The notes beneath the pieces are model-generated. The model did not search any database. It had not been told where the DNA came from and saw nothing but the letters and a program-made list of their open reading frames with translations. The position numbers and the translations under genes were made by a program. A stretch of 42,905 bases of DNA from Deltaproteobacteria bacterium (GTDB lineage: Bacteria; Myxococcota_A; Polyangia; Polyangiales; JADJMO01): NCBI GenBank assembly GCA_022843175.1, contig JALHOE010000054.1, positions 1 to 42,905 on the forward strand, read 5' to 3'. Shown piece by piece: positions 22,628 to 42,905 of the stretch; positions within the stretch are counted from its first letter, which is position 1; the number at the start of each line of letters is the position of its first letter.

Positions 22628-23718
22628 GCGGTTCCGAGCTTGCACCGCCGCAGCCGCGGCCGTCTCTCCTTCGCCGCCACGGCGTCAAAGCGCTGGTTTC
22701 GCTGGCGATCGCCGGCGCGTTCGCGTGGGTGCTCCTCCGCGCCGGCCTGCCGATCGTCCCCGATCGAGCGGCGATGTCGCACGTGCGCTGGCCGCTCGTC
22801 GCCGCCCACGCCGCCATCCTCTTCTGCGTCCACTTCGTCCGCGCGATCCGCTGGCGCCACCTGCTGCGGCCGATCGCCCCCGGCATCCGCCGCCGCCGCG
22901 TGATGGCGGCGTCGTGGATCGGCTTCACCGCCATCCTCCTCTTGCCGCTCCGCGCGGGTGAGATCGTGCGGCCGTGGCTGATCCGCGATCGCAAGCAGAT
23001 CAGCCTCAGCGCCGCGCTCGGCACCATGGGCGCCGAGCGGGTGATCGACGGCCTCGTGGTCACGATGGTCCTCGCCGGCGCGCTGGTCTTCGTCCCCCGC
23101 CTCGACCCGCTGCCCAAGACCTTCGGCGATCTGAAGATCCCCGTCGCGGCGATCCCCGCGGCCGGCTACGCCGCGCTCGCGCTGTTCGTCACGCTGTTCC
23201 TCATGATGGCGGTGTTCTACTTCGCGCGCTCCTTCAGCCAGCGCGTCATCCACGCCACCATCGGCCGGGTGAGCGAGCGGCTCGCCGCGCGCGTCGCCGC
23301 GATCGTCGGCGGGCTCGCCGAGGGCCTTCACTTCCTGTCCAACAAGCGGCACGGCGTCCCCTTCATCGGCGAGACGCTCGTCTACTGGGGACTCAACGCC
23401 ACGGGCATGTGGGTCCTCGGCCTGGCGTGCGGCCTCCCGATGACCTTCGGTCACGCCTGCGCGGTGATGGGCGTCCTCGCCGTCGGCATCCTCGTGCCGG
23501 CCGGTCCGGGGCTGTTCGGCGCGTTCCAGGCCTCTACCTACGGGGCGCTCGCGATGTTCTTCGCCCCCACCACCGTCGTGCGCGAGGGCGCCGCGTACGT
23601 GTTCCTGCTCTACGTCGTGCAGTTCCTCTGGCACATCGTCGCCGCGGGCATCGGCGTGTTGTTCGACCCGGCGGTGCTCAAGCCCGATCCCGAGACCGTC
23701 GAAGAAGTCGTCCGCTGA
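22624..23718 (+). CDS. YbhN/UPF0104-type polytopic membrane protein (flippase-like)
   Basis: A 364-residue integral membrane protein with about eight hydrophobic segments. The family shows RAIRWRHLLRPIAPGIRRRR and the region GFTAILLLPLRAGEIVRPWLI, which matches the conserved NxxxPxRxGExxR signature of UPF0104 (the flippase-like domain also found in lysylphosphatidylglycerol synthase). The second half contains PAGPGLFGAFQAS, corresponding to the conserved PGGxGxxE-like loop. Some members are proposed lipid translocators. It starts inside the oxidoreductase stop (ATGA) and overlaps the 3' end of the convergent YfhO-like gene by 41 bp. Confidence 0.8.
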   Translation: MSGSELAPPQPRPSLLRRHGVKALVSLAIAGAFAWVLLRAGLPIVPDRAAMSHVRWPLVAAHAAILFCVHFVRAIRWRHLLRPIAPGIRRRRVMAASWIGFTAILLLPLRAGEIVRPWLIRDRKQISLSAALGTMGAERVIDGLVVTMVLAGALVFVPRLDPLPKTFGDLKIPVAAIPAAGYAALALFVTLFLMMAVFYFARSFSQRVIHATIGRVSERLAARVAAIVGGLAEGLHFLSNKRHGVPFIGETLVYWGLNATGMWVLGLACGLPMTFGHACAVMGVLAVGILVPAGPGLFGAFQASTYGALAMFFAPTTVVREGAAYVFLLYVVQFLWHIVAAGIGVLFDPAVLKPDPETVEEVVR

Positions 23719-25408
23719 GCACGAACGAGCCCACGAGCACGAGCCCGCCGAGCAGGCTCGCGATCGCGCCGGGGAGAAACCCGCGCGGCCTATAGCGGAC
23801 CTCGAGGCGGTGGGTTCCCGCCGGCACCACGACGTCGAGCGTGTTGCGCGCGGACTTGCGGATCTGGCCGACGTTGACCACGAAGTCGGGGTCGAAGGTG
23901 TGGTTGAGACGAATCGCGCCCGGCGCGTTGAGCGTCGCGTCGACGAGCGTCACGTTCTGGTGCACCTCGGCCGTCTGCACGCGCCCGTTGTCGGCGGTGG
24001 CCTGTGGCACGTCTCCGATCGCGTAGCCGTTGCCCTCTGGGTAGGGCCAGCTCTTGTGGCACGCGGGGGAGCCGACGTTGCGCGCCGGGTAGGTGGCCAT
24101 GCGGCCGAAGTCGGCGCCGTCGACGAAGTGGAACCTGCCGGCCGGCGGGTCGGGACGCGGCAACCAGGGATCGGTGGTGTTGGCCTTGAGCGCCTTCTGC
24201 CCCGCCCCGATCGGATCGTAGAGCGCGGCGAGGCCCGCGAGCACCAGCGGCACGAGCAGGAGCGGGCGCTTGACCGCACGCGCCCCGGCGTCGAGCGCGA
24301 TCGCCGCGCAGACCGCGGCCGCGAGATCGACGAGCACGACGAACCGCGAGGGGACCTGGAGCTGATCGAACGCCGGCAGCTTGGTGAGGAGCGACCACGG
24401 CGCCGAGGGACCGAACGCGCCCCGGGTGAGAGCGATCGCGGTGACGAGTAGCAGCGCGACGCCGAGCCGTCGCGGCTTGAGGATCAAGCACACGCCCGCG
24501 CCCGCGATCGCCATGCCGACCGCGAATGGCCCGATGTAGCCGCGGAACTCGTTGACGTGGTAGTGCCGGCCGGGCATCGCGCCGCGGTCGCTGTCGCCGA
24601 GCATCGGGATGATGTCGGCCCACGGCCCCTGATCGAGATCCTTGAGGAGGCGCGGCGCCCGCGAGAGCTGCACCATCACCGGCAAGATCTTCATCGCGCC
24701 GATGAGCGCGCAGGTGAGGGCGACGAGGCCGAGCATGCGGAGCACCGAGAGCGCCGTCGTGTCCTTCGCGAAGAAGCGCGGCAGCGTGACGACCGCGAGC
24801 GCGACGAGCCCGTAGCAGAACGGGAAGAGCGCGCCCTCGAGCAGCATCAGCCCGAGCACGGCGCCCGCGGCGCACGCCGCGCGGAGATCGCGCTCACCGA
24901 CATACGCGAAGTAGAGGACCCACGGGATCGCCATGAACGGCGCGAACGGCATGCGCACCGCCCCGTGCAGGCTGACGAATCCCGAGGCCACGAACAGGAT
25001 CCCGGCGAACGCGGACGGCAGCCAGGCCACCTGCAGCGCGCGCCGCGCCCAGAGGAATGTGCCCGCGACGCCGAGCCCGGCGAACACCGTCGGGTACCAC
25101 CGGTGCATCGTGTCGCCGTGGATACGGAACAGCCCGGCGACGAACGACGAGACGAGCGGGGTGTCCGGGTTCCCGACGAACGGCAGACCGCCGCACACCG
25201 AGCGGTCCCACAGCGGAAACCCGTCGCCGCGGAGGAACGAGGCGCGGGCCACCTCCCAGTAGCGGACCCCGAACTGCCCGTCGGCCGGGACGGTGAGGTT
25301 TTGGGTGATCGAGGCCCACCGCACGACGAGCGCGGCGATGACGGAGAGGACGGTGACGGCGAGCGCAGAGGTCACCGCGCGAGTCAGCCGTTTCTGCCGC
25401 GGGAGCAT
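23678..25408 (-). CDS. YfhO/GT-C-like polytopic membrane protein
   Basis: A 576-residue membrane protein with roughly ten to twelve hydrophobic segments, then a periplasmic beta-rich part (ATLNAPGAIRLNHTFDPDF, VVPAGTHRLEVRYRPRGF) and a final membrane helix. This layout and GDGFPLWDRSVCGGLPFVGN near the N-terminus are typical of the YfhO-like group thought to be lipid-linked sugar transferases. It is a paralog of the protein at 31277-33022 (FPHWNPYECGGLPLWDN; PAGTHHVVVRYLPRTF). The start is preceded by ATAAGGTCGCCCGC, shared exactly with that paralog. The 3' end overlaps the convergent YbhN-type gene by 41 bp. The sugar donor and acceptor are unknown. Confidence 0.75.
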   Translation of the reverse strand: MLPRQKRLTRAVTSALAVTVLSVIAALVVRWASITQNLTVPADGQFGVRYWEVARASFLRGDGFPLWDRSVCGGLPFVGNPDTPLVSSFVAGLFRIHGDTMHRWYPTVFAGLGVAGTFLWARRALQVAWLPSAFAGILFVASGFVSLHGAVRMPFAPFMAIPWVLYFAYVGERDLRAACAAGAVLGLMLLEGALFPFCYGLVALAVVTLPRFFAKDTTALSVLRMLGLVALTCALIGAMKILPVMVQLSRAPRLLKDLDQGPWADIIPMLGDSDRGAMPGRHYHVNEFRGYIGPFAVGMAIAGAGVCLILKPRRLGVALLLVTAIALTRGAFGPSAPWSLLTKLPAFDQLQVPSRFVVLVDLAAAVCAAIALDAGARAVKRPLLLVPLVLAGLAALYDPIGAGQKALKANTTDPWLPRPDPPAGRFHFVDGADFGRMATYPARNVGSPACHKSWPYPEGNGYAIGDVPQATADNGRVQTAEVHQNVTLVDATLNAPGAIRLNHTFDPDFVVNVGQIRKSARNTLDVVVPAGTHRLEVRYRPRGFLPGAIASLLGGLVLVGSFVLSGRLLRRSRDRA

Positions 25409-30408: not shown

Positions 30409-31290
30409 TCAGTCGACCTCGATCTCTCCAAACCCGCCGCCCGATAGGTGCCAGGTCTTGACCTCGATACGGATGCGGTCCACCGACGCGGCGCCGATCT
30501 CGACCGTGCGCCACGTGGGCTCGGCGGAGAACGCCTCGAATCGCCCGTCGGCCGTCTTCACGACCTGGCCCTTGGAAAAGGCCTCGACCTTGAACTCATG
30601 GGTGGAGCGGTCGTTGTACGGGGTGTTGCGCGCGTTGAGGAGCTTGAGGCGCGCGACCTTGCGCGGGGGGATGACCTGGACCTCGATCCAGCCCGGCGTG
30701 CGGTCGGGGAGCACCCAGTCGGTCGCGTCGTTGCCGTCGACGGCGTTGCTCGCCTGATAGCGCTGGTCCCACATCGCCGACGCCGTGGCCTTGAGCACGC
30801 GCGGCGTGCGCACGAGGTAATAGACGGCGAACACGGCGGCGAGCGCTGCCGCGGCGGTCGCGGCCGCTCGCATGACGCGCTTCTGGGCGATGCCACGCTT
30901 GTCGAGCGCGAGCTCCTGGTGCCCGGCGACGAGGCGCGAGTGCTCCGCGAGCAGCGCGCGAAACTCGGCGGCGTGCTCCTTCGTGACCTCGCTGTCGAGC
31001 GCGGGCGCGTCGATGGGCGAGGCCTTCGCCTCGAGGCCGGCCTCGGTGAGCGCGCCGCGCGCGAGCGCGAGCGCGTCGATGAGCAGGCGAAGGGCGTCGG
31101 CCGGGAAGCCGGCGATCCACAGCGCCTCGGCCGCCCCGCGTCGCTGCGCGGAGAGCGCGAGCGCGCGCGCGGTCTTGTCGCGCACCTCGGCGGGGACCTT
31201 CTCGGCGCGGGCCTCGAGGTCGCGCAGCAAAAACCACTCGCGGGCGCGGTCGCCGAGCCGCCCTCGGCGCGTTGCATCAACTGACGACAT
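30409..31290 (-). CDS. Membrane-anchored protein with C-terminal discoidin-like glycan-binding domain
   Basis: A 293-residue protein. Residues 1-130 form a helical cytosolic region (opening AREWFLLRDLEARAE). One membrane segment follows (about 142-165, AAATAAAALAAVFAVYYLV). The C-terminal domain of about 120 residues resembles a discoidin or NADase-type glycan-binding fold: YQASNAVDGNDATDWVLPD, WIEVQV, KLLNARNTPYNDRSTHEF and a closing GGGFGEIEVD. It is a paralog of the proteins starting at 41957 and 42775. The gene overlaps by 14 bp the preceding YfhO-like gene, so the two are probably made together. The function is unknown. A role in binding or presenting glycan to the membrane glycosyltransferase is inferred. 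Confidence 0.7.
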   Translation of the reverse strand: MSSVDATRRGRLGDRAREWFLLRDLEARAEKVPAEVRDKTARALALSAQRRGAAEALWIAGFPADALRLLIDALALARGALTEAGLEAKASPIDAPALDSEVTKEHAAEFRALLAEHSRLVAGHQELALDKRGIAQKRVMRAAATAAAALAAVFAVYYLVRTPRVLKATASAMWDQRYQASNAVDGNDATDWVLPDRTPGWIEVQVIPPRKVARLKLLNARNTPYNDRSTHEFKVEAFSKGQVVKTADGRFEAFSAEPTWRTVEIGAASVDRIRIEVKTWHLSGGGFGEIEVD

Positions 31291-33022
31291 TGCGCCTCTC
31301 AGCGTAGCCGCGGCGGGCGCGGTAGATGAAGTAGCCGATCACCGAAAGGAGCGAGACGATCGTGATCGCCGCGCCGACGCGGAACGTGCGGGGCAGATAG
31401 CGTACGACCACGTGGTGCGTCCCGGCGGGGACGTCGAGGACGAGCTGCTTGTTCTCCTCGTGCGTCACGCCCACGTTCGAGCGCCAGCCCTTGTCGTAGG
31501 TACCGTTGAGGAGGACGCGCGCCGGCGCGCTCGCGGCGACGTCGAAGGTGAACGTGTTGGGCGTGCGACGCACGTTGGCGACGGTGGCCCCGCTGCTCTT
31601 GGCCTGCGGCACGTCGTCGAGCCACAGCGGCGCGCCCGAACCGAAGCCCCACTCGTCCCAACACAGCAAGCGGCTGAGGTTCTGCCGCGGCTGATCGATC
31701 ATCGGCACCGTGTCCGCCGCGATGTAGAGGCGCGGCGACACTGCCACCGTCTGCTCCGGCGCGCTCGTGAACGAGCCCTCGAACACGTTGAGGCCGACGC
31801 TGATCACGTCGCCGACGCCGATCAGCGCCACGCACACCACGGTGGTGCGGACCGCGTCGAGCAGCTCGAAGCGGGGGCGGAGCGCGCGGAGGCGGAAGAC
31901 GATTCGGTCGACGCCGAGCCCGGCGAAGACCGCGAGGAACATGGTGACCTCGCAGCGGAACCGCGACGGGACGCGCATCTCCTTGAAGGGGAAGACGTGC
32001 GCCTTGAGGAAGGCCCACGGCGCGTACTTGCCGGCGTGGCCGAACATCAGCGCCACCGAGAACGCGAGGAGCACCATCAGCCACACGTGCTCGACGCCGG
32101 CGAGGAGGATCCCGAGGAACGCGAGGGCGAGCACGATCGGCCCGAGGTACGCGCCGTACTCCGGCCACACGTAGCCCTGCCCGGCGACGAAGCGGTCGTG
32201 GGTGCGGGCGAGGAACATCGACTTGAACGTCTCCCACTGGAGCGCGTCGGTCTCGGGGCCGATCGGGCGGGTGTGCGACTTGAGCTGCTCGAACACCGGC
32301 AAGAACCGGCTCGCTCCGAGGGTGATGCCCACCGCGACCACCACCGCGCCCGCGCGCACGATCGCGCCGGCGTTCTTCGGGCGGACGCGCAGGAGCGTCT
32401 CGACGGCGAGGATCACCGCGAGGTGCGGGATCGGATACACGCCGCCCTCGTACATCATCCACGCGACGAGCACGCCGAGGCCGACCGCGAAGCGCATGTC
32501 GTCGACCGCGCGTCGCCACAGCAGGATGCCGAGCGGGAAGTAGAGGAACGGCACGAAGGTGAAGTGCCCGCCGGAGTAGTGCTGCTGGTGGAACCCGGCG
32601 AACGCCCAGGCCGCGCTGGCGACGAAGGCCGCGGCGCGCGACAGCGACAGCTCACGCCGCGCGAACAGCCACATGCACCCGAAGCCGAGCGCCGAGTGGA
32701 TGACGTACCACCACGCCATCATGGTGGTGGTGCCGACGACGAACATCGGCCACACCAGCGGCGCGCCGAGCGGGGCCTGCGGGTTGTCCCACAGCGGCAG
32801 CCCGCCGCACTCGTAGGGGTTCCAGTGGGGGAACTCCTTGTAGCGAACGATGCTGATCCGCGCCGCCTCGAGCGTCTTGTGGTACGGCGGGCCGTCGCCG
32901 GCCTGGGTGTTGGGCAGCGCCTTGAGCACGGGCCACCACGCGAACACCGACAGCGCGAGCGCCACGCCCGACAGCGCGAGGGCGCGCGCCCACCGCGGGA
33001 TCGTCGAGAGGTCGTCGCGCAT
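31277..33022 (-). CDS. YfhO/GT-C-like polytopic membrane protein
   Basis: A 581-residue membrane protein with about eleven hydrophobic segments, a periplasmic C-terminal beta-rich domain (FTFDVAASAPARVLLNGTYDKGW, split from VLDVPAGTHHVVVRYLP) and a last membrane helix followed by a basic tail. It is paralogous to the protein at 23678-25408: both have WNPYECGGLPLWDN-like or WDRSVCGGLPFVGN segments and a PAGTHxxxVRYxPRxF closure. Such proteins are presumed to transfer sugars from polyprenyl phosphate. The start is preceded by ATAAGGTCGCCCGC at 33037-33024, as in the paralog. It overlaps the discoidin-like gene by 14 bp. Confidence 0.75.
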   Translation of the reverse strand: MRDDLSTIPRWARALALSGVALALSVFAWWPVLKALPNTQAGDGPPYHKTLEAARISIVRYKEFPHWNPYECGGLPLWDNPQAPLGAPLVWPMFVVGTTTMMAWWYVIHSALGFGCMWLFARRELSLSRAAAFVASAAWAFAGFHQQHYSGGHFTFVPFLYFPLGILLWRRAVDDMRFAVGLGVLVAWMMYEGGVYPIPHLAVILAVETLLRVRPKNAGAIVRAGAVVVAVGITLGASRFLPVFEQLKSHTRPIGPETDALQWETFKSMFLARTHDRFVAGQGYVWPEYGAYLGPIVLALAFLGILLAGVEHVWLMVLLAFSVALMFGHAGKYAPWAFLKAHVFPFKEMRVPSRFRCEVTMFLAVFAGLGVDRIVFRLRALRPRFELLDAVRTTVVCVALIGVGDVISVGLNVFEGSFTSAPEQTVAVSPRLYIAADTVPMIDQPRQNLSRLLCWDEWGFGSGAPLWLDDVPQAKSSGATVANVRRTPNTFTFDVAASAPARVLLNGTYDKGWRSNVGVTHEENKQLVLDVPAGTHHVVVRYLPRTFRVGAAITIVSLLSVIGYFIYRARRGYAERRNVVS

Positions 33023-33043
33023 CGCGGGCGACCTTATATCAGG

Positions 33044-34867
33044 TCACGGGAAGTACACGCGCGGGCACTCCGCGCGCGGGCGGCCGGCGCGCTTCTCCGA
33101 CGCGTCCGCCTCGGCGACGCGACCGAGCCCGCGCTCCATGTCGGCGATCGCCCACCACAGACACGGCCGGCGCTCCGCCTTCGGGCGCAGCAGCGTGAGG
33201 TGATCGCGGCCGGGCGGCTCCCAGGCGGCGGTCAGCGAGCGGCGCGCGTCGGCGCCCGCGTCGCCGCCCTCGGCCGGCAGCGGCTCGGAGAACGCCGGCC
33301 TGAGCCCGAGGTACGCGAACGCGCCGAACACGACCACGCGCGTGAGGTACGACAGCACGCGATCGCGGTGCGGCCACAGCGCGGCGAGCAGCGTGGCCAC
33401 GAGCATCGCGCCGACGACGACGAACCAGGTGCGCGGCGAGGTCCAGTGGAAGAGCTGCCCGGCGTGGTGCGGCACGAAGCCGGCGCGCGCGAGCGGGATG
33501 GCGAACTGCGGCAGGGGCCGGGTGACGTTCTCGGGGATGGTGTTGTAGAGCGCGCCGAGCACGCCCATCTGCGCGACCGACGCGAGCGCGAGCCCGCCGC
33601 ACACGCCGCGGGCGAGGGTGCGCCGGAGGCGCGAGGTGCCGGAGAAGGCCTCTGCCGCGACGATCGCGCCGAACGCGAAGAACGGCGGCGCGGCGCCGAG
33701 GTAGCGCGGTCCCACCGTCCACCCGCCGCGCCAGTTGATCGCGGCCGAGACGGTGAGCCAGAGGAGGAACATCGTCAGCGCCCACGCGGCGGTGGCGACG
33801 ATCGCCTGCTGCCGCTCGTGCGCCGCGCCGCGCCGGGTGAAGAGCACCGCCGGCACCGCGAGGAACCCGAGCCACATGAACGGGCTCGTGCCGAAGAACC
33901 CGTAGGTGTGGCTGAGGCTGATGTCCTTGAACACCTGGAAGTTCGGCTTGCCGATGCCGAACAGGCCCTGGTTGAGGAGCGCGGCGAACGCTGGGTTCTC
34001 GCTCATTTTGTGGCCGGGCGTGAGCGGGCTGCCGAACGCGCGCCACTGGAAGAACATGAGCGCCCCCGCGCACAGCATCGCGCCCACGCCGAACGTCACG
34101 AGCCGCGTCGGGCGATAGAACGTGGTGAGCGCGTAGAGCGCGAGCGCGCCGGACACCGGGAACGCGTGGTATTCGAGCAGCGTGGCGAGGCCGGCGAGGA
34201 ACCCGGCGAGGAAGGCGCGCGACAGGCGCCGCTTTCGCGCGTCGTGGGGGAACTGCGCGCGCTCGCGGGTGATGACCGCGAACGAGCCGAACGCCGCGCA
34301 CGCGAACGGCGCGTGGCTCGCGAACATCAGCGAGTAGGCGAGGTAGTTGGTGCCGACGCCCGCGGCGACGACCGCGGTCATCCGCAGCACCGGGTCGTTG
34401 CTGTAGTGGCGGAGGAACCGCTCGAACCAGATCAGGAAGAGGAAGCACGGCAGCTGCACCGCGAAGAGCCGGAGCACGAACGTCGTCACCCGCATCCACG
34501 ACTGCAGCTCGGCCTGCGGCGCGCCCACCTCGGGCACCGGCGTGCCGTAGCGGGGAGAGAGCTTGGTGAGCGCCCAGTAGAACGGCACCCCGGCGTAGCT
34601 GATCGCCGGCGCCTTCACCGAGTAGAGGTGGCTCTCGCCGGTCTTCTTGTCCGGCGCCTTGGCCATGTCGTTCACCCAGCCGTGGCGCTCGACCAGCTTG
34701 TCGATCTTGAAGGTCCGCTGCTCGACGATGGCCATCGTCATGTAGGTGCGGACGTTCTCGTTCGGGTTGTTAACCGTGCCGATGTACGGGTAGATGCACG
34801 TGAACGCGAGGAAAAGGAGGGCGAGCATCGCTCGCACCGCCCACCGGCTCGCTGTCCGCGCACGCAT
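33044..34867 (-). CDS. GT-C-type polytopic membrane protein
   Basis: A 607-residue integral membrane protein with about ten to twelve hydrophobic segments. An early extracytoplasmic loop (NNPNENVRTYMTMAIVEQRT, then FKIDKLVERHG) holds the acidic residues that in GT-C enzymes form the active site. The segment SAPAISYAGVPFYW is read here as KAPAISYAGVPFYW. No specific family is recognised; ArnT/PMT-like lipid-linked sugar transferase is the closest style. A soluble tail (LTLLRPKAERRPCLWWAIADM) closes it. It is the first gene of the minus-strand run 34867-26590 and is divergent from the polyprenol-phosphate sugar transferase gene, with a 59-base gap containing TATATC-like AT-rich sequence. Confidence 0.7.
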   Translation of the reverse strand: MRARTASRWAVRAMLALLFLAFTCIYPYIGTVNNPNENVRTYMTMAIVEQRTFKIDKLVERHGWVNDMAKAPDKKTGESHLYSVKAPAISYAGVPFYWALTKLSPRYGTPVPEVGAPQAELQSWMRVTTFVLRLFAVQLPCFLFLIWFERFLRHYSNDPVLRMTAVVAAGVGTNYLAYSLMFASHAPFACAAFGSFAVITRERAQFPHDARKRRLSRAFLAGFLAGLATLLEYHAFPVSGALALYALTTFYRPTRLVTFGVGAMLCAGALMFFQWRAFGSPLTPGHKMSENPAFAALLNQGLFGIGKPNFQVFKDISLSHTYGFFGTSPFMWLGFLAVPAVLFTRRGAAHERQQAIVATAAWALTMFLLWLTVSAAINWRGGWTVGPRYLGAAPPFFAFGAIVAAEAFSGTSRLRRTLARGVCGGLALASVAQMGVLGALYNTIPENVTRPLPQFAIPLARAGFVPHHAGQLFHWTSPRTWFVVVGAMLVATLLAALWPHRDRVLSYLTRVVVFGAFAYLGLRPAFSEPLPAEGGDAGADARRSLTAAWEPPGRDHLTLLRPKAERRPCLWWAIADMERGLGRVAEADASEKRAGRPRAECPRVYFP

Positions 34868-34926
34868 CGGCGTAGCGATATAGCCGGTTTTGAGCCGCCC
34901 CGGCGACGTGGTAGACGCCGGACGCC

Positions 34927-35907
34927 TTGGCGCGCCCGACCCTGAGCTTGGTACTCCCGATCTACAACGAGGAGGAGGTCATCCCCGAGCTGCACGTTCG
35001 GCTGCAGGAGTTCCTCTCCAAGCTCGAGGTCCCCTCCGAGGTGGTCTTCGTCAACGACGGCTCGAAGGACCGCTCGATGGAGATGCTCCGCGACATCTCC
35101 AAGGGCGAGCCGCGCTACCGGGTGCTCTCGTTCGCCCGCAATTTCGGCCACCAAACCGCGATCACCGCCGGCATCGACTACGCTCGCGGCGCCGCGGTGG
35201 TGGTGATGGACGCAGACCTCCAGGACCCCCCCGAGGTCGTCCTCGAGATGGTCGCCAAGTGGCGCGAGGGGTTCGACGTCGTCTACGGCAAGCGCCGCAA
35301 ACGCGAGGGCGAGACCTGGTTCAAGCTGTTCACCGCGCGCTGGTTCTACCGGGTGTTCGCCGCGATGATCCCCATCGAGGTGCCGCTCGACACGGGCGAC
35401 TTCCGCCTCATGAGCCGCCGGGTGGTCATCGCGCTCCGCGCCCTCCGCGAGACCCACCGCTTCGTCCGCGGGATGGTGTCGTGGGTCGGCTTCAAGCAGA
35501 CGGCCGTCCTCTACGACCGCCCCGGCCGCTTCGCCGGCGAGACGAAGTACCCGCTGCGCAAGATGCTCAAGTTCGCGATCGACGGGATCACGTCGTTCAG
35601 CGTCCTGCCGCTCCGGTTCGCCACCTACCTCGGCATGCTCATCAGCCTGATGAGCGTCGGCGTCGCCGTGTGGGCCGTGGTCGCGCACTTCGCCCTCAAG
35701 GCCACCGTCCCCGGCTGGACGGCGTCGGTCGTGCTCACCTCGCTCCTCGCGGCGGTGCAGCTCCTGATGATCGGCATCCTCGGCGAGTACATCGGCCGCA
35801 TCTACGAGCAGGTGAAGGGCCGCCCGCTCTACACCGTCGGAGACAAGGTGAACCTCGGCAAGCGCGACACCGACGAGCTCGACGAAGAAGAGGGCGAGCC
35901 CCAATGA
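34927..35907 (+). CDS. Polyprenol-phosphate sugar transferase (GT2, DPM1/GtrB/ArnC-like)
   Basis: A 326-residue family 2 glycosyltransferase. The GT-A domain has LVLPIYNEEEVIPEL, FVNDGSKDRS, VMDADLQDPPE (metal-binding DAD) and LDTGDFRLMSRR, all typical of enzymes that load a sugar onto undecaprenyl or dolichyl phosphate. Two membrane helices follow (YLGMLISLMSVGVAVWAVV and TSLLAAVQLLMIGILGEYIG), with GEYIGRIYEQVKGRPLY as in GtrB and ArnC. The product would be the donor for GT-C enzymes such as the neighbouring polytopic proteins. The start codon is TTG, since an in-frame stop lies 13 bases upstream. The stop overlaps the next start as ATGA. Confidence 0.9.
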   Translation: MARPTLSLVLPIYNEEEVIPELHVRLQEFLSKLEVPSEVVFVNDGSKDRSMEMLRDISKGEPRYRVLSFARNFGHQTAITAGIDYARGAAVVVMDADLQDPPEVVLEMVAKWREGFDVVYGKRRKREGETWFKLFTARWFYRVFAAMIPIEVPLDTGDFRLMSRRVVIALRALRETHRFVRGMVSWVGFKQTAVLYDRPGRFAGETKYPLRKMLKFAIDGITSFSVLPLRFATYLGMLISLMSVGVAVWAVVAHFALKATVPGWTASVVLTSLLAAVQLLMIGILGEYIGRIYEQVKGRPLYTVGDKVNLGKRDTDELDEEEGEPQ

Positions 35908-37085
35908 GCCTCGACCTCGTCCTCTTCGGCGCCACCGGCTTCACTGGCAAGCTCGTCGCCGAGTACCTCCGCGGCAAGCCGGTGCGGTGGGCCCTCGCGG
36001 GCCGCGATCGGGGCAAGCTCGAGGCGTTGCAGCGGGAGCTCGGGGTCGACGTGCCGATCCTCGTCGGCGACGTGCGCGATCCGGCGTCGCTCGAGGCGAT
36101 CGTGAAGCAGACCCGGGTGGTGTGCACGACGGTCGGCCCCTACGCCATGTACGGCGCCCCGGTCGTCGCCGCGTGCGCCGCGCACGGCGTCGACTACTGC
36201 GACCTCACCGGCGAGACCCACTGGATCCGCCGCATGATCGACGCGCACCACGAGCAGGCGAAGCAGACCGGCGCCCGCATCGTGCACTGCTGCGGCTTCG
36301 ACTCGATCCCGTCCGACCTCGGCGTGTGGGCGGTGCAGGACCACGCGCTGCGCACCCACGGCAAGCCCTGCTCCTCGATCGTGTACGCGCTCGGCAAGAG
36401 CCGCGGCGGCATCAGCGGCGGCACCATCGCCAGCATGATGAACCTGATGGACGAGGCGAAGAAGGACCGCGCGGTGCGCAAGGTGCTCCTCGATCCCTAC
36501 GCGCTCAACCCCGCCGGCGAGCGCGGCCCCGACGGCCCCGACCAGCGCAGCGTCGAGCTCGACCGCGACCTCAACGCGTGGACGGCGCCCTTCGTGATGG
36601 CGGCGATCAACACCCGCATCGTCCGCCGCACCAATGCATTGAGTGATTATCGATACGGCCGGGACTTCCATTACCGCGAGGTGATGTCGTTCCCGCGCGG
36701 TCCGCGCGGCTTCGCCACCGCGTTCGGCGTCACCGCGGCGCTCGGCGGGTTCTTCGTCGCCGCCGCCCTCGGCCCCACGCGCAAGCTGCTCGAGAACACG
36801 GTGCTGCCCGCGCCCGGCGAGGGCCCCGACGCGCACACGCGCGAGCGCGGCTCGTTCGAGGTGCGGCTGGTGGGGCAGGGCGACGGCTTCCGCGTCGAGG
36901 GTCGCTTCGCCGGCAAGGGAGATCCCGGCTACGGCGCCACCTCGGTGATGCTCGCCGAGTCCGCGCTGTGCCTCGCGCTCGACGGCCGCTCCACCGGCGG
37001 CGGCATCCTCACGCCGGCGTACGCGATGGGCGGCCAGCTCGCCACGCGGCTGCGGGCGGCGGGCTTCGCCATCGAAGCGCGCTGA
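35904..37085 (+). CDS. Saccharopine-dehydrogenase-family / trans-acting enoyl reductase-like protein
   Basis: A 393-residue protein with an N-terminal NAD(P)-binding Rossmann fold (DLVLFGATGFTGKLVAEYL, then WALAGRDRGKLEAL). The family signatures are TTVGPYAMYGAPVVAACAAHGVDY (split across VGPYAMYGAPVVAAC and AAHGVDYCDLTGE) and HCCGFDSIPSDLGVW. This is the group containing mycobacterial trans-acting enoyl reductases that reduce polyketide or glycolipid intermediates. It does not act in lysine breakdown despite the family name. A hydrophobic stretch (TAALGGFFVAAALG) may associate with membrane. Coupling to the polyprenol-phosphate transferase by ATGA suggests a lipid or polyprenoid substrate, as an inference. 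Confidence 0.85.
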   Translation: MSLDLVLFGATGFTGKLVAEYLRGKPVRWALAGRDRGKLEALQRELGVDVPILVGDVRDPASLEAIVKQTRVVCTTVGPYAMYGAPVVAACAAHGVDYCDLTGETHWIRRMIDAHHEQAKQTGARIVHCCGFDSIPSDLGVWAVQDHALRTHGKPCSSIVYALGKSRGGISGGTIASMMNLMDEAKKDRAVRKVLLDPYALNPAGERGPDGPDQRSVELDRDLNAWTAPFVMAAINTRIVRRTNALSDYRYGRDFHYREVMSFPRGPRGFATAFGVTAALGGFFVAAALGPTRKLLENTVLPAPGEGPDAHTRERGSFEVRLVGQGDGFRVEGRFAGKGDPGYGATSVMLAESALCLALDGRSTGGGILTPAYAMGGQLATRLRAAGFAIEAR

Positions 37086-37109
37086 TCGCTCGCGCAGGCT
37101 CGGTCGAAA

Positions 37110-37189
37110 GGTCGAAGGGTCGAAGCGTCGAAGGGTGGGACGCGCGCCGCTGATTCTCGTTCGACTTTGAACCTTTCGACCCTTCGACC
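37110..37189. terminator. GGTCGAA-repeat hairpin between convergent genes
   Basis: A 15-base perfect inverted repeat, GGTCGAAGGGTCGAA at 37110-37124 and TTCGACCCTTCGACC at 37175-37189, encloses 50 bases. Four near-tandem (G)GTCGAA units cover 37102-37134, and the other arm holds two or three in the opposite sense. It lies in the 158-bp gap between convergent genes. It may end transcription or be a dispersed repeat element. The remaining bases of the gap show nothing clear. Confidence 0.5.
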
Positions 37190-37243
37190 AGGCGCGCAAT
37201 TGCGGCGTGGCCGGAAGGGCGCATCGGCCTACCCGAACTGGCT

Positions 37244-37714
37244 CTAGAAAACTGAGAGATCGTACACAGCAAGAACGACCGCGGAGGGGGTCATGCCGTC
37301 CTTTGCCGCGAAGGCCCGGAGGGTTGTCCTAGGCGCCTTCAGCGTGATCGGCGCGCTGTAGCGAGTGCTGCTCGTCGTGGGCGTCGACCCATCGATCGAG
37401 AAGTAGATTGTCGCGCCCGGCGTCGCGGAGGCCATCGTGACAGTGACGGAGTCCATGTACTCGCCGCCGGGTGGGGTGAAGACCGGCGCAGCGACCGCCG
37501 TCAATGCCTCGCCGGTGGAGTCGGCGCTCGCGTCCGGCGAGCCGTCACCAGTCATTGCGTCGCCCACAGCGTCAACGACACCCATCGAGTCGACAGCGCG
37601 CGAATCGGCTGCCGCGTCCGAACCGCTGTCGAGGATCGCGGGTGCGGAAGAACTCGCGCACGCCGTCGGCAGCAGGAGAGCCAGCGCGAGTAGGTGACGA
37701 GTGGGGTTGGTCAT
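37244..37714 (-). CDS. Lipoprotein with chitobiase-type C-terminal domain, copy A
   Basis: A 156-residue lipoprotein. The signal is MTNPTRHLLALALLLPTAC, with lipobox-like PTAC; an ATG 54 bases upstream would precede this signal and is not used. A Ser/Asp/Ala-rich linker follows. The C-terminal 70 residues match the beta-sandwich domain found at the end of chitobiases and many secreted proteins: FTPPGGEYMDSVTVTM, PGATIYFSIDGSTPTTSS, APITLKAPRTTLRAFAAKDG. It has no catalytic residues and probably serves in binding or structure. It is the downstream copy of a tandem pair, differing from copy B almost only in this domain. Confidence 0.8.
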   Translation of the reverse strand: MTNPTRHLLALALLLPTACASSSAPAILDSGSDAAADSRAVDSMGVVDAVGDAMTGDGSPDASADSTGEALTAVAAPVFTPPGGEYMDSVTVTMASATPGATIYFSIDGSTPTTSSTRYSAPITLKAPRTTLRAFAAKDGMTPSAVVLAVYDLSVF

Positions 37715-37764
37715 TTCGGAGGTCGTGCCGCCGCGTTCCCTGGTGACGACGTCATGATTCGGCT

Positions 37765-37828
37765 TCACCGGGCGAGCGCCGCACAGCGGATCTGCGGGCG
37801 CTCCTTGAGCGGCGTCGTCGGTCCGCCT
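37765..37828 (-). pseudogene. 3' fragment of the lipoprotein gene at 38359, carried by the duplication
   Basis: This stretch encodes GPTTPLKERPQIRCAALAR and a stop at 37765-37767, which matches the C-terminus GPTTPLEERPQIRCAALTP of the intact gene at 38359-38808, at the same 594-bp offset. It lacks any start, so it is a leftover of the duplication boundary. Confidence 0.75.
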
Positions 37829-37837
37829 CCGCGCACT

Positions 37838-38308
37838 CTAGAACATCGAAAGATCGTACACAGCAACAACGACCGCGGAGGGGGTCATGCCGTCCTTTGC
37901 CGCGAAGGCGCGGAAGGTTGTTCGCGACGTTTTCAACGTGATCGGCGCGCTGTAGCGAGTGCTGCTCGTCGTGGGCGTCGAGCCATCGGTCGAGAAGTAG
38001 ATTGTCGCACCCGGCGTCGCACAGTCCATCGTGACGGTGACGGGACCCATGTACGTTCCTCCGGGCGGGGTGAGGACCGGCGCCGCGACCGCCGTCAATG
38101 CCTCGCCGGTGGAGTCGGCGCTCGCGTCCGGCGAGCCGTCACCAGTCATTGCGTCGCCCACAGCGTCAACGACACCCATCGAGTCGACAGCGCGCGAATC
38201 GGCTGCCGCGTCCGAACCGCTGTCGAGGATCGCGGGTGCGGAAGAACTCGCGCACGCCGTCGGCAGCAGGAGAGCCAGCGCGAGTAGGTGACGAGTGGGG
38301 TTGGTCAT
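37838..38308 (-). CDS. Lipoprotein with chitobiase-type C-terminal domain, copy B
   Basis: A 156-residue tandem paralog of the gene at 37244-37714. The signal peptide and the Ser/Asp/Ala-rich linker are identical to copy A at the DNA level. The chitobiase-type C-terminal domain differs at several residues (VLTPPGGTYMGPVTVTMDC, YFSTDGSTPTT, LKTSRTTFRAFAAKDG). An extra cysteine (MDCATPG) occurs here in place of MASATPG. Because copy B keeps its normal upstream gene neighbour (38359-38808), it is probably the original and copy A the duplicate. The role is unknown; both are expected to be membrane-anchored secreted proteins. Confidence 0.8.
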   Translation of the reverse strand: MTNPTRHLLALALLLPTACASSSAPAILDSGSDAAADSRAVDSMGVVDAVGDAMTGDGSPDASADSTGEALTAVAAPVLTPPGGTYMGPVTVTMDCATPGATIYFSTDGSTPTTSSTRYSAPITLKTSRTTFRAFAAKDGMTPSAVVVAVYDLSMF

Positions 38309-38358
38309 TTCAACGCCTTGCCGCCGCGCTCCTTGATGACGACGCCACTGAGTCGGGC

Positions 38359-38808
38359 TCAGGGGGTGAGCGCCGCGCAGCGGATCTGCGGGCGCTCCTC
38401 GAGCGGCGTCGTTGGTCCGCCCTGCTCGTAGCCGGTGCAGCGAAGCTCGCGGGTGCGGGGATCGCGGAGGTCGAGCGTGGTGCGCGTCCTCGCCTTGAAG
38501 CGATACCCCGAGAGGTAGGAGAACACGCCGTAGCCGTGGCCCTGATACTCGGCCTCCACCGCGATCTCGTGGGCGCCCCCGCCGAGCGTCACGGCGCCGA
38601 GCTTCAGCATGGCCTGCTCGGCGAGGTCCTCGCCGCCGCGCGTGGCGACCGATTGGCCGTCGATCCACATCGCGAGCCGGCGGAGCCGGAACGACTTGCC
38701 CATCGTGTTCTCGTAGGAGAGCTCGGTCATGACCATGAACGAGGGGCGCGGCTCCTCGGGCTCCGGAAAGCAGCCGACGACGAGCGCGCACCACAGGAGC
38801 CGGCGCAT
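38359..38808 (-). CDS. Small lipoprotein of unknown function
   Basis: A 149-residue lipoprotein. The signal MRRLLWCALVVGC ends in a VVGC lipobox. The mature protein is beta-rich and polar (FMVMTELSYENTMGKSFRLRR, split at ENTMG; LGGGAHEIAVEAEYQG, GYRFKARTRTTLDL). It ends with the Pro/Arg/Cys segment GYEQGGPTTPLEERPQIRC that is duplicated as a fragment at 37765. I recognise no family. It starts on the base before the ThuA-like gene's stop codon, so the two are probably in one transcript. Confidence 0.7.
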   Translation of the reverse strand: MRRLLWCALVVGCFPEPEEPRPSFMVMTELSYENTMGKSFRLRRLAMWIDGQSVATRGGEDLAEQAMLKLGAVTLGGGAHEIAVEAEYQGHGYGVFSYLSGYRFKARTRTTLDLRDPRTRELRCTGYEQGGPTTPLEERPQIRCAALTP

Positions 38809-39786
38809 CTACTTCAACTTGCCCGCCGCCCACGCCGTGCCCGCGAGCACGTGGTGGAGGAACGGCGTGTCGAACCAGCTCTCGGGGGTGTGTCCGAGCG
38901 ACGTATAGAACGCGCGGCCGCCGCCGTGGTTGCGCTTCCACGCGAGCGGGTGCGTCGGCGCGTGGCGCATGCCGGCGGGGAACGCGGGGCACTCGACGTC
39001 GAGCGAGAGCAGGATGGTGTTGGCCTTGTCGTCGGCCGGGTTGGTGGTGAAGTGGTACTGCTCGTCGCAGCGGACCCACGGCTTCGGCAGCCCGGCGGTG
39101 ATCGGATCGCACGGGTTCGGATCGACCGCGCTCGGGAGCAGCACGTCGGGGTGGGTGTTGAACGTCGCGCCGACGAACGACACGAACCACGGCCAGTCGT
39201 ACTCGGTGTGGCTCGCCGAGTGGGTGCCCGCCCAGCCCTTCCCGGAGGCGATCCAGTCCTGGAACGCGTTGCGGCCGGCGGTGCCGCCGAATACGCCGTT
39301 GCCCGAGGTCTGGAGGAACAGCACGACGTCGAACCCCGCGAGCCGCGCGGCCGTGAACACGGCGGGATCGCTCGACACCTCCACCGTCCACCCGAGCGCC
39401 TTCGCGCACGTCTCGACGTTCTTCGTCGCCGGGCAGGTCGACGGGTGGAACCACTCGGTCTCCTTGTTGTAGACGAGCACCCGCACCGGATCGCTCGCGA
39501 GCTTCGGGCACTCGAGCTTCCACGGCGGGGCGCAGCCGGCGTCGATGATCCGCGGCCCGCACATGGTGGAGGCGGTCTCGCTCGGGCACGTCGCGCGCTT
39601 CGGGATATCGCAGCTCGGGGGCGCGTCGAGCGCCGCCTCGGGCAACGACGAATCGAGGACCGCTCCGCTATCCGTAACGGTGCTCGTTTCGAGCATCGCG
39701 CCGGTGTCCCCGGCCGCGGCCGCCGGCTCCGGATCGCCCTTGCCGCACGCGGAGAGGAAGACCACTGCAAGAAGCCGCATCCGCAT
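38809..39786 (-). CDS. ThuA-like domain lipoprotein
   Basis: A 325-residue lipoprotein. The start at 39786 gives MRMRLLAVVFLSAC, with lipobox LSAC; a second ATG two codons later is equally usable. A linker with TDSGAVLDSSLPEA leads into a cysteine-containing segment and then a ThuA-type domain. That domain has VRVLVYNKETEWFHPS, FDVVLFLQTSGNG, FQDWIASGKGWAGTHSASH, YDWPWFVSFVGATFNTHP and GGGRAFYTSLGHTPESW. ThuA domains adopt a class-I glutamine-amidotransferase-like fold and occur in secreted glycan-related proteins. The usual catalytic Cys is not evident, so a binding role is possible. It diverges from the methyltransferase gene across 28 bases. Confidence 0.8.
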   Translation of the reverse strand: MRMRLLAVVFLSACGKGDPEPAAAAGDTGAMLETSTVTDSGAVLDSSLPEAALDAPPSCDIPKRATCPSETASTMCGPRIIDAGCAPPWKLECPKLASDPVRVLVYNKETEWFHPSTCPATKNVETCAKALGWTVEVSSDPAVFTAARLAGFDVVLFLQTSGNGVFGGTAGRNAFQDWIASGKGWAGTHSASHTEYDWPWFVSFVGATFNTHPDVLLPSAVDPNPCDPITAGLPKPWVRCDEQYHFTTNPADDKANTILLSLDVECPAFPAGMRHAPTHPLAWKRNHGGGRAFYTSLGHTPESWFDTPFLHHVLAGTAWAAGKLK

Positions 39787-39814
39787 CCGCAAAAAGGTAG
39801 CATCCGGCCCGCCG

Positions 39815-40672
39815 ATGTCCGACCGACCCTGTGAAGCCTGCTCCGGCAGCCGCTTCGCCAAGATCTTCACCAAGCTCGAGCACGACTTCTATCGCTGCTC
39901 GGAGTGTGGCCTCGAGCGGATCGACCCGCAGCCGAGCGACGCCACGCTCGCGGCGATCTACGGCAAGCACTACTACGACGCGTGGGGCCTCCACGGGCAG
40001 GAGGAGATCGTCCGCGGCCTCAAGAAGTCCACGTTCCGGCGCAACCTCGAGGGCATCCCCGGGGCCAAGCGCGGCAAGCTCCTCGACTGCGGCGCGGCCA
40101 CCGGCTTCCTCATGGAGGTCGCCGCCGAGATCGGCTTCGACGCGTACGGCGTCGAGCTCTCGGAGTACGGCGCGGGCGAGATCGCCAAGCGCTTCGGCAG
40201 GGACCACGTCTTCCAGGGCGAGATCGAGCAGGCCACCTTCGCCCCCGGCTCGTTCGACGTCGTCACCATGTACGACTACCTCGAGCACGTGCGCGATCCC
40301 GAGCGCGTGCTCCGGCGCGCGCGCGAGCTGCTCGCGCCGGGCGGCGTGCTCTCGATCACCACGCCGAGCACCGGCTCGTTCACCCATCACGTCATGGGTC
40401 GACACTGGTCGCACTACAAGCTCGAGCACCTCTACTATTTCGGCCCGGACAGCCTCGCGCGTCTGCTCGAGCGCGCGGGCTTCCATCGCGTCCACGACAC
40501 CCGCGCGTGGAAGACGATGAACCTCCGCTACATCCACCACCAGATGGAGACCTACCCGACGCCGGGTCTCACGCTCGTGGCGCGCACGATGGCCAAGGTC
40601 CTCCCCGGGCCGCTGATGGATCGGTCGTTCCCGATCCTGATGGGAGAGCTCTACGCCCATGCTTCCGCGTGA
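39815..40672 (+). CDS. SAM-dependent methyltransferase with N-terminal zinc-ribbon-like motif
   Basis: A 285-residue protein. The N-terminus has two CxxC pairs (CEACSGSRF, then YRCSECGLER), a pattern of methyltransferases that act on sugars or other surface metabolites. The class I core follows, with LLDCGAATGFLMEVAAE, YGVELSEYG, VTMYDYLEHVRDPERVL and LLAPGGVLSITTPST. The C-terminal half is typical of methyltransferase family 23 (HHVMGRHWSHYKLEHLYYF). The target is unknown. It is convergent with nothing nearby, and its stop overlaps the next gene by 14 bp, so it is co-transcribed with the GT-C-like gene. Modification of a surface glycan is plausible. Confidence 0.85.
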   Translation: MSDRPCEACSGSRFAKIFTKLEHDFYRCSECGLERIDPQPSDATLAAIYGKHYYDAWGLHGQEEIVRGLKKSTFRRNLEGIPGAKRGKLLDCGAATGFLMEVAAEIGFDAYGVELSEYGAGEIAKRFGRDHVFQGEIEQATFAPGSFDVVTMYDYLEHVRDPERVLRRARELLAPGGVLSITTPSTGSFTHHVMGRHWSHYKLEHLYYFGPDSLARLLERAGFHRVHDTRAWKTMNLRYIHHQMETYPTPGLTLVARTMAKVLPGPLMDRSFPILMGELYAHASA

Positions 40673-41960
40673 CGTCACGCGTGAGGGGGGCCTCGCCGCA
40701 GCGCTCCGCGCGTGGTTCCACCGTCTCGCGATCGTGGTGATCTGCGGCTCGCTCGCGCTCGTTGCGTCCGAGCAGCTCGCCTACGTGGCCGAGAAGGGCG
40801 ACGCGCTCTCGGACTTCGCGGACAACAACTCCGAGTCCAACGCCATCCGCGCCGGCGAGTCCTACGCCCGTCGCGGCTTCACCTACAACTACGGGCTCCC
40901 CGACATCGCCTACGGCAGGCAGTTCCCCCAGTGGGGCGCCAAGATCGACCTCGACTACTGCGGTCACGAGAACGGCAGCTTCGAGACCTGCGTCTACCAG
41001 CACTACCCGCCGGGCCCCGACGTCACGGTCGGCGTGCTCACGCGCTTCTTCGGCGCCGGCCGCGCGGGCTACTTCCGGCTGTTCCCGGTGTCGCTCGGGA
41101 TCCTCTGCCTCGGCTTCTTCGCGGTGACGCTGTTTCGCCTGCTCGGGCCGGTGCGCGCGGCGCTGATCGTGTTCGTGCTGTGCCGGCTGCCGCTCACGCA
41201 GAACATGATGCACGGCCTCCACTACCAGGGGTACGCGCTGTCGCTCCTGCTCGTGCAGCTCGCGGTGCTCCTCCGCCTGTTCCTCCGCCCGGCCGTCGAC
41301 AAGGAGTGGCACTTCCTCGCGCTCTACACGCTCGGCCACCTGCAGGGTTGGCTCTCGTTCGACTACTGCTTCCTCGTCACCTTCTGCGCGGTGCCGATCT
41401 GGCTGCTCGCGCCGGAGTGGCGGTCGCGGCTCCTGCTCAAGCGCGTGTTCCTCGCGGTCTTCCTCGCCGGGCTCGGCTTCACCGTCGCCCACGTCCTGCA
41501 CTTCACCCAGGTCATGCTCTATCGCGGCGGCGGGCTCCCGGGCCTGATCGACCACTTCCGCGAGGTCGCCCGCGCGCGCTCCAAGACCACCAACTGGGAC
41601 GCCGAGCTCGCGTTCCCGGGGCTGTTCGGCCTCCTCGTCCGCTACTGGACGGTGCTCCTGCCGAAGCCGCTCTACTTCGACCTCCACTTCACCGCGTGGA
41701 TCGCCGCGGTCGTCGCCTTCTTCCTCGTGCCGTTCCGCAAGCTCGACGCGGTCTTCGGTCGCTTCGTGCTCCGGGTGCGGGTGCACGGCCACCACCTCGC
41801 GGCCGTGCTCACCGCGCTCGCGGTGTCGTCGCTGTGGATCGTGCTCATGCGCACGCACGCGTTCGTCCACCAGCACTTCCTGCCGCGCCACTACTTCCTC
41901 GGGTTCTTCGTCGCGCTGCTCGCGTTCCTCGTGTCGGTCTCGGTGGAGGCTCTGGAATGA
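40659..41960 (+). CDS. GT-C-like polytopic membrane protein
   Basis: A 433-residue membrane protein with roughly nine hydrophobic segments. The first large extracytoplasmic loop carries SESNAIRAGESYARRGFTYN and YGLPDIAYGRQFPQ, then VYQHYPPGPDVTVG. These are the acidic and aromatic features of PMT/GT39-like mannosyl transferases. No specific family can be named. It overlaps the methyltransferase stop by 14 bp, and its stop overlaps the next gene as ATGA, so the three are coupled. Its partner directly downstream is a membrane-anchored discoidin-like protein, as for the YfhO-like gene at 31277. Confidence 0.7.
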   Translation: MLPRDVTREGGLAAALRAWFHRLAIVVICGSLALVASEQLAYVAEKGDALSDFADNNSESNAIRAGESYARRGFTYNYGLPDIAYGRQFPQWGAKIDLDYCGHENGSFETCVYQHYPPGPDVTVGVLTRFFGAGRAGYFRLFPVSLGILCLGFFAVTLFRLLGPVRAALIVFVLCRLPLTQNMMHGLHYQGYALSLLLVQLAVLLRLFLRPAVDKEWHFLALYTLGHLQGWLSFDYCFLVTFCAVPIWLLAPEWRSRLLLKRVFLAVFLAGLGFTVAHVLHFTQVMLYRGGGLPGLIDHFREVARARSKTTNWDAELAFPGLFGLLVRYWTVLLPKPLYFDLHFTAWIAAVVAFFLVPFRKLDAVFGRFVLRVRVHGHHLAAVLTALAVSSLWIVLMRTHAFVHQHFLPRHYFLGFFVALLAFLVSVSVEALE

Positions 41961-42769
41961 CCCCGCGTGACCTAGCCGAGTATTTCTTGCTTCGCGACGA
42001 GCAACGGCGGGCCGGGGCGATCGGTGAGGCCGAGCGCGAAACGGCGCGCGGCCTGCTCGCGAACGGAGAGCTCGAGCGCTCGGCCGCGGCGGAGCGCTGG
42101 GTCGGCGATCGCCCCGACGACGCGCTCGCCGGCCTCACCCGCGCGTGCGCCGAGGTCGACGAGGCCGCGCGCGCGATCGGCGTCTCGGTCGAGCCGATCG
42201 CCGAAGCGAGCGACGCCCCGGCTCGCTACGACGCGCTCCTCACGCACTACGAGCACACCCGCGCCGAGGTCGCCGCGCTCGTCGCGAGCAGGGTCAAGCG
42301 CTGGCTGCGGCGCGGCGCGCGGCTCCTCATCCCGATCTCGGTCGTGCTCCTCGCGCTGTTCGTCCGCAAGGTGCGCAAGTTCGTCCACCCCATCGCGTCC
42401 GGTGCGTTCAGCCCCAAATACGACGCGCGGTACGCGATCGACGGCCGCCCCGACACCGCGTGGATCGCCCCCGACTCGACGCACGCGTGGATCGACTTCG
42501 AGCTGATGCCGCCGCGCCCCGTGAAGTGGATCCGCATGCTCGACACGCGCAACTCCCCGAACAACGACCGCGAGGTCAAGGAGTTCCGCATCGAGTTCTG
42601 GCGCGACGGCAAGCCGGTCGACGCGGTCGAGGGCTCCTATCCGGGGGGCGAGCGACCGGGGTACATCCGCGTCGCCGTCGAGCGCCCGTGGAACGTCGAG
42701 AAGGTCCGCTTCGTCATCAAGACCTACGCGGAGCGGGGCGGCGGCCTAGCGGAGATCGAGTTCCATTGA
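41957..42769 (+). CDS. Membrane-anchored protein with discoidin-like domain, second paralog
   Basis: A 270-residue paralog of the protein at 30409-31290. The N-terminal cytosolic helical region opens LAEYFLLRDEQRRAG. One membrane segment follows (LLIPISVVLLALFV). The C-terminal domain has YDARYAIDGRPDTAWIAPD, WIDFELMPPR, RMLDTRNSPNNDREVKEF and GGGLAEIEFH. The conserved DTRNxPxNDR motif is shared with the paralog (NARNTPYNDR). Its start overlaps the GT-C-like stop as ATGA, and a third family member begins within 6 bases of its end. Confidence 0.75.
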   Translation: MTPRDLAEYFLLRDEQRRAGAIGEAERETARGLLANGELERSAAAERWVGDRPDDALAGLTRACAEVDEAARAIGVSVEPIAEASDAPARYDALLTHYEHTRAEVAALVASRVKRWLRRGARLLIPISVVLLALFVRKVRKFVHPIASGAFSPKYDARYAIDGRPDTAWIAPDSTHAWIDFELMPPRPVKWIRMLDTRNSPNNDREVKEFRIEFWRDGKPVDAVEGSYPGGERPGYIRVAVERPWNVEKVRFVIKTYAERGGGLAEIEFH

Positions 42770-42774
42770 GCCCC

Positions 42775-42905
42775 GTGACCAGGGCGCGCGAGTTCCTGCT
42801 GCTCGAGGGCATGTCCGAGCGCGCCGCCGCGCTCACCGACGACCAGCGGCGCGCCGCGCGGCCGCACCTCGACCACGCGCGCGCGCGGCACGTCGCGGGC
42901 GAGGC
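42775..42905 (+). CDS. Third membrane-anchored family member, N-terminal part (runs off right edge)
   Basis: From GTG at 42775 the sequence reads TRAREFLLLEGMSERAAAL, then TDDQRRAARPHLDHARAR, without a stop to the window edge. The opening resembles the cytosolic N-termini of the two paralogs (AREWFLLRDLEARAE and LAEYFLLRDEQRRAG). A TTG three codons earlier, overlapping the preceding stop, is an alternative start. Only about 43 residues are visible, so the discoidin-like domain is predicted, not seen. Confidence 0.55.
   Translation, partial: MTRAREFLLLEGMSERAAALTDDQRRAARPHLDHARARHVAGE

Follow-up and report, generated by a model that had tools for sequence, protein, structure and literature searches.

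Carbohydrate-binding modules (CBMs) are built into several membrane glycosyltransferases of the GT-C fold, and those of EmbC, AftD and ORF12 bind the acceptor (PMC11127046, PMC7341804); furthermore, Rismondo et al. speculated on a separately encoded acceptor-binding protein for GT-C enzymes (PMC8035078). How GT-C enzymes that have no built-in binding module choose their acceptor is an open question, to which the protein family described here offers a concrete candidate answer. The family is encoded in a window of 42,905 nucleotides (nt) that constitutes an entire contig (C54, GenBank JALHOE010000054.1; last nucleotide 42905) of the 9.75-Mb draft genome of a Deltaproteobacteria bacterium (assembly GCA_022843175.1; order Polyangiales), in which two complete genes (for the discoidin proteins A and B) and the beginning of a third were recognised (Table 1). 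All results described here derive from sequence analysis and predicted structures. We observed that its members are recurrently encoded in tandem with, or fused to, polytopic membrane proteins. A literature search of partial coverage yielded no earlier description of the family, and an account in a subscription journal is possible.

A discoidin family encoded beside polytopic membrane proteins

A and B share about 31% identity over their length (by sequence comparison) and a common layout, in which presumably cytosolic helices precede a single membrane helix, to which a discoidin domain of the CBM32/F5-8-type-C kind is joined. This domain is matched by the F5_F8_type_C profile (PF00754, curated cut-off 28.2) with 35.1 bits in A (E 1.7e-8) and 39.4 bits in B (E 8e-10). 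The motif that a sequence-only reading of the window had written as N/DxRNxPxNDR reads NARNTPYNDR in A and DTRNSPNNDR in B, and the gene overlaps which it reported at two loci are borne out as well, as the start of A falls 14 nt inside an upstream polytopic gene (581 amino acids, aa) and that of B 4 nt inside another (433 aa). The same reading had counted three members of common architecture, which holds for A and B; the third copy offers only 43 codons within the window, its membrane helix and discoidin domain lying beyond the contig end. It is probably continued on contig C70 of the same genome (a join that we infer), which starts within a family gene (3-665, L010/L083; 220 aa, motif NARNSPYNDR) that matches the family from about residue 84 onward and is overlapped by a convergent YfhO-like gene (14 nt).

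The genomic coupling was surveyed in 59 members (after clustering at 70% identity) from related Myxococcota genomes, with 376 genes from the same loci as controls. A neighbour was counted if it lay on the same strand, at most 2 genes away and with gaps of no more than 150 nt, and encoded at least 350 residues with at least 5 predicted membrane helices. By this measure 34 of the 59 members lie in one run with a polytopic gene on their strand, versus 24 of the 376 controls (6%; Fisher p 2e-19), an about nine-fold enrichment on which chance adjacency was rejected; overlapping pairs number 14 among members versus 6 among controls, and irrespective of orientation a polytopic gene adjoins 37/59 members. 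Most homologues thus have such a neighbour, and these figures, together with the existence of fused versions (see below), lend good support to the functional pair that had been proposed from the sequence. The coupled share is probably a lower bound, because draft contigs end beside several members; gene calls (by a codon-model script) and membrane-helix counts (by hydropathy) are heuristic, and the start called for the L129 member probably lies too far upstream.

As for its distribution, the family profile found matches in 24 of 56 sampled relatives, and in a 377-genome sample of the phylum the strong matches were placed nearly all within the same order (Polyangiales-type myxobacteria, which live in soil and water). 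A scan of named genomes with a narrower alignment gave 12 loci, all in records of Myxococcota, Myxococcales, Deltaproteobacteria or Sandaracinus/Sandaracinaceae (a first scan of named genomes had given no match). The discoidin matches from outside the order (L135-L146), which are mostly secreted, devoid of the cytosolic and transmembrane (TM) parts and without polytopic neighbours, were excluded from the survey. The domain exists outside the membrane-anchored architecture too, as shown by L114:6619-8235 (-), which encodes 538 aa with no predicted TM helix (discoidin domain at 397-537, 132 bits with the family model) and overlaps the gene of the upstream protein by 4 nt.

Seven proteins (L115-L121, with L130 as a weak eighth) unite a polytopic part and a discoidin domain in one chain, and in all of them the enzyme comes first and the discoidin domain second, as in the gene order of the window. 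Most fusions are devoid of the cytosolic domain and keep only the membrane helix plus discoidin domain, or the discoidin domain alone; L120 retains part of the helical region. Fused and separate-adjacent forms were both found for three partner families, namely the YfhO type (fused in L115, L116 and L119; separate in L057 and L059, with 4-nt overlap), the PTPS-related type (fused in L120; separate in L062, 4 nt) and the L121 type (fused in L121; separate in L128, 1 nt), and such natural fusions indicate which enzyme-discoidin pairs belong together. Overall, the partners matched the PMT_2, PMT, YfhO, PTPS_related and TMEM260-like types. No one-to-one co-inheritance with any one enzyme family was seen, as the discoidin tree has at least 24 changes of partner class (many of its forks being open). 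Beside one further discoidin gene we observed L068:8251-11538 (-), whose product (1096 aa, about 10 TM helices) bears a C-terminal DUF2961.

Predicted structures of the discoidin protein and its partners

The AlphaFold2 model of A (from 38 aligned rows) has a mean predicted local distance difference test (pLDDT) score of 94.6 and consists of five helices, a long membrane helix and a beta sandwich. Foldseek matched the sandwich to CBM32 and F5/8C domains (E 5e-9 to chitosan-binding modules), and VIA superposed the model on the galactose-binding CBM32 of NanJ (2v72) with Z 17.5 and a root-mean-square deviation of 2.0 over 124 residues. Among the members, 36/38 match PF00754, and CBM_AftD appears as a weak Pfam match within the discoidin domain. 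Lys and Arg are more frequent ahead of the membrane helix than after it (4.0 versus 2.1 per 15 residues; N-terminal side richer in 54/60 members), which argues for an N-in, discoidin-out topology. Moreover, 95-100% of members retain the D, T/S and E of the structural calcium site described for CBM32 (PMC12926856): D185 is present in 62/62, T/S190 in 61/62 and E289 in 58/61.

The sequence-only reading had called both partners GT-C/YfhO-like, a designation that holds for the 581-aa partner of A (weakly by Pfam, clearly as to the GT-C fold) and finds no family match in the 433-aa partner of B. The 581-aa protein scores 15.6 bits with Pfam YfhO (PF09586), below the cut-off of 28.5, which a close relative (L047:10296-12113) passes with 34 bits. 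Its predicted model (pLDDT 83.8) has the GT-C glycosyltransferase fold of PglB, STT3 and AftD: the 16 best Foldseek matches are all GT-C (AftA, PglB, OST/STT3, ALG12, ArnT, AftD, EmbB and others), and the Z scores from VIA were 21 for STT3 and 20 for AftD (481 residues aligned), as compared to about 4 for unrelated proteins. GT-C enzymes carry a catalytic acid shortly after TM1, and in the 581-aa protein D43, located in the first external loop soon after TM1 (10-28), is invariant among 18 relatives and may be the catalytic residue. A second YfhO-like polytopic protein of the window (23678-25408 (-), 576 aa) has no adjoining discoidin gene; the discoidin subunit is therefore not needed by every enzyme of this family.

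A conserved one-TM protein of 160-180 aa (LTQxYLVLDEGIRxxWPGxDG; no Pfam match) was observed at six loci of one subgroup (Table 1), where its gene and the YfhO-like gene have 1-4 nt in common; at four of these loci it separates the YfhO-like gene from the discoidin gene, and the protein possibly represents a third subunit.

Across 38 genomes the 433-aa protein has a single relative, a paralogue encoded alongside it in the same genome. The gene upstream of the discoidin gene at L044:18796, in a genome of the same genus (G001), encodes an unrelated, TMEM260-like protein; this gene overlaps the discoidin gene by 4 nt.

Proposed acceptor presentation and its rivals

By analogy with enzymes that carry fused modules, we favour with moderate confidence the reading that the discoidin protein is anchored in the membrane and serves GT-C glycosyltransferases, and membrane enzymes related to them, as an acceptor-binding subunit that works in trans. 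Its N-terminal helical domain would reside in the cytosol, one helix would span the inner membrane and carry the CBM32-like domain on its periplasmic side, in physical complex with the neighbouring GT-C enzyme. This enzyme would use a polyprenyl-phosphate sugar, which in the window probably comes from the GtrB-like GT2 at 34927: this protein matches the structure of the GtrB-type sll0501 with E 4e-102, its DxDxQ motif is noted for the GtrB-type group of polyprenyl-phosphate GT2 enzymes (PMC10821137), and it likely makes such a donor. The discoidin domain would bind the acceptor, be it a growing envelope polysaccharide or a glycoprotein, and present it to the periplasmic active site, doing in trans the job that the fused CBMs of AftD, EmbC and GT136 perform in cis.

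Several observations weigh against this reading. About 40% of the members have no polytopic gene in the same run, and the 433-aa partner of B has no Pfam or PDB sequence match and could be assigned to no family. No GtrA-type flippase (PF04138) is encoded in the window (the two matches of the genome are on C241 and C140 only), and a flippase of another type may act at the locus. Furthermore, some partners (L051:6100-8628, L054:2660-5326 and L152:4167-6836) are membrane enzymes of the sulfatase superfamily rather than glycosyltransferases. The glycan-transfer module that had been suggested from the sequence is supported on the enzyme side, by the GT-C fold in the window and the PMT-, YfhO-, TMEM260- and PTPS-type partners elsewhere. 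As to the ligand, the galactose-binding signature of CBM32 (contact His plus stacking aromatics) is missing from the discoidin domain by alignment and position counting: the position of the contact His is taken by Leu193 (Leu in most members), and those of the aromatics, counted from the shared Asp and Glu, by D196 and G284. Lastly, protein-binding relatives, namely IFT25 (VIA Z 17) and APC10 (Foldseek), match the fold about equally well.

The sulfatase-superfamily partners resemble LtaS/EptA-type transferases and carry a MopE-like metal-binding motif. Because of such partners the role of the family may be wider than glycosyl transfer, and we put forward, tentatively, that the discoidin protein might be a mobile substrate-presenting adaptor that (as partner gene or fusion) confers acceptor specificity in trans on many unrelated envelope-modifying enzymes of the periplasm, from several GT-C families as well as the sulfatase superfamily.

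The main rival, which we regard as rather unlikely, is an assembly or stability factor whose membrane helix and discoidin domain would, by protein-protein contact, fasten onto the GT-C enzyme or link it to other envelope proteins, independently of sugar. The fold matches to IFT25 and APC10, the replaced sugar contacts and the chemical diversity of the partners all speak for it. However, the conserved residues particular to the family occupy (by position counting) the loops that correspond to the ligand-site loops of CBM32, and in several other GT-C enzymes the equivalent place is occupied by modules that truly bind the acceptor. Since these family-own loop residues are kept and the galactose contacts replaced, the ligand site is likely at the usual CBM32 place, and its ligand would not be simply galactose. 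The suggestion of the sequence-only reading, that the acceptor may be held by the discoidin part, is plausible, with the reservation that the canonical galactose contacts are replaced.

A sensor, in which the periplasmic discoidin domain would detect envelope glycan and the cytosolic helices would report on it or regulate donor supply or the enzyme, appears improbable. Such a role would fit the conservation of the cytosolic helical domain in nearly all separately encoded members, and weak TPR-like similarity (profile searches with this domain gave chance-level matches only, to EAD7 and TPR). It is made less likely by the fusions, most of which drop the cytosolic domain and thereby mark it as dispensable for the partnership, and no recurrent regulator or kinase genes stand beside the discoidin genes.

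That both genes merely travel together in an envelope-glycan gene island is very unlikely: the genes near the window locus (likely for heptose-nucleotide synthesis, a GT9 heptosyltransferase, an LPG_synthase_TM protein and methyltransferases) and the 6% of controls with polytopic neighbours would suit it, but the enrichment, the excess of overlaps and the fusions to several unrelated polytopic types do not.

Neighbouring genes and comparison with known systems

Table 1. Coordinates of the discoidin genes, their partners and associated genes (positions in the window unless a locus is named).
Feature	Position	Strand	Description	Evidence
Discoidin protein A	30409..31290	-	293 aa; helices 5-123 (predicted cytosolic), membrane helix 131-160, CBM32-like domain 165-292	Open reading frame (ORF), PF00754, model, fold matches
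Partner of A	31277..33022	-	581 aa, polytopic, YfhO-like, predicted GT-C fold	ORF, weak PF09586, model, D43
Second polytopic protein, upstream in the strand run of A	33044..34867	-	607 aa (first ATG) or 594 aa (internal start)	
GtrB/DPMS-like GT2	34927..35907	+	DxDxQ motif	PF00535 E 2e-31
Methyltransferase	39815..40672	+	Overlaps the 433-aa gene by 14 nt	PF13489 E 1.4e-27
Partner of B	40659..41960	+	433 aa, polytopic, about 9 predicted membrane helices	ORF
Discoidin protein B	41957..42769	+	270 aa	ORF, PF00754, homology to A
Third family member	42775..42905	+	GTG start, 43 codons (131 nt) before the contig end	Sequence
One-TM protein	L083:2466-2948	-		
One-TM protein	L047:12110-12604	-		
One-TM protein	L063:8168-8698	-		
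One-TM protein	L075:7492-8028	-		
One-TM protein	L076:4292-4828	-		
One-TM protein	L077:8901-9446	+		

The second polytopic protein of the strand run of A matches no Pfam family above cut-off, and its homologues adjoin discoidin loci in L047, L075 and L076. Elsewhere in the window, a gene whose small, lipoprotein-like product has a chitobiase C-terminal-like domain is present as a tandem duplicate (37242-37541 and 37836-38135; spacing 594 nt, about 90% identity), the duplication including 37755-37827 and 38349-38421.

If acceptor presentation by the discoidin protein is true, the question of acceptor choice becomes directly testable, and the family would provide a handle for annotating many uncharacterised polytopic enzymes of myxobacteria.

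Among described systems, the NCBIfam family NADase_discoid (NF047619) is matched by 19/38 members (best E 4e-8), and the domain is therefore a recognised discoidin-type, glycan-binding-like one; A itself, at 16.5 bits, stays below the cut-off of 38, and both architecture and gene context differ. With the CBM32 modules of NanJ (2v72) and GH84C (2j1a/2j1e) the family has in common the fold (Z 17.5 and 16.1, respectively) and the residues of the calcium site, whereas in the window family other residues stand in for the galactose-contact His and, as judged by position, for the aromatics. Moreover, the known modules belong to secreted glycosidases, and the present one is attached to a membrane helix that follows a cytosolic domain. 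The three-component CsbB/GtcA/YfhO systems resemble the window in that a GtrB/CsbB-like GT2 and a YfhO-like GT-C gene are found side by side; in contrast, the window has no GtrA flippase gene, includes an additional discoidin subunit, belongs to a Gram-negative host and encodes a 581-aa protein that falls under the Pfam YfhO cut-off. Finally, AftD, EmbA/B/C and the GT136 enzyme ORF12 share with the present pairs a GT-C fold combined with a periplasmic beta-sandwich module. Acceptor binding has been shown for those modules (PMC11127046, PMC7341804) and is suggested for that of the window by analogy. In the known enzymes the module is part of the same chain, whereas in the window a gene of its own encodes it, together with a membrane helix and a cytosolic domain; the fusions L115, L116 and L119 have a layout identical to that of the known enzymes.

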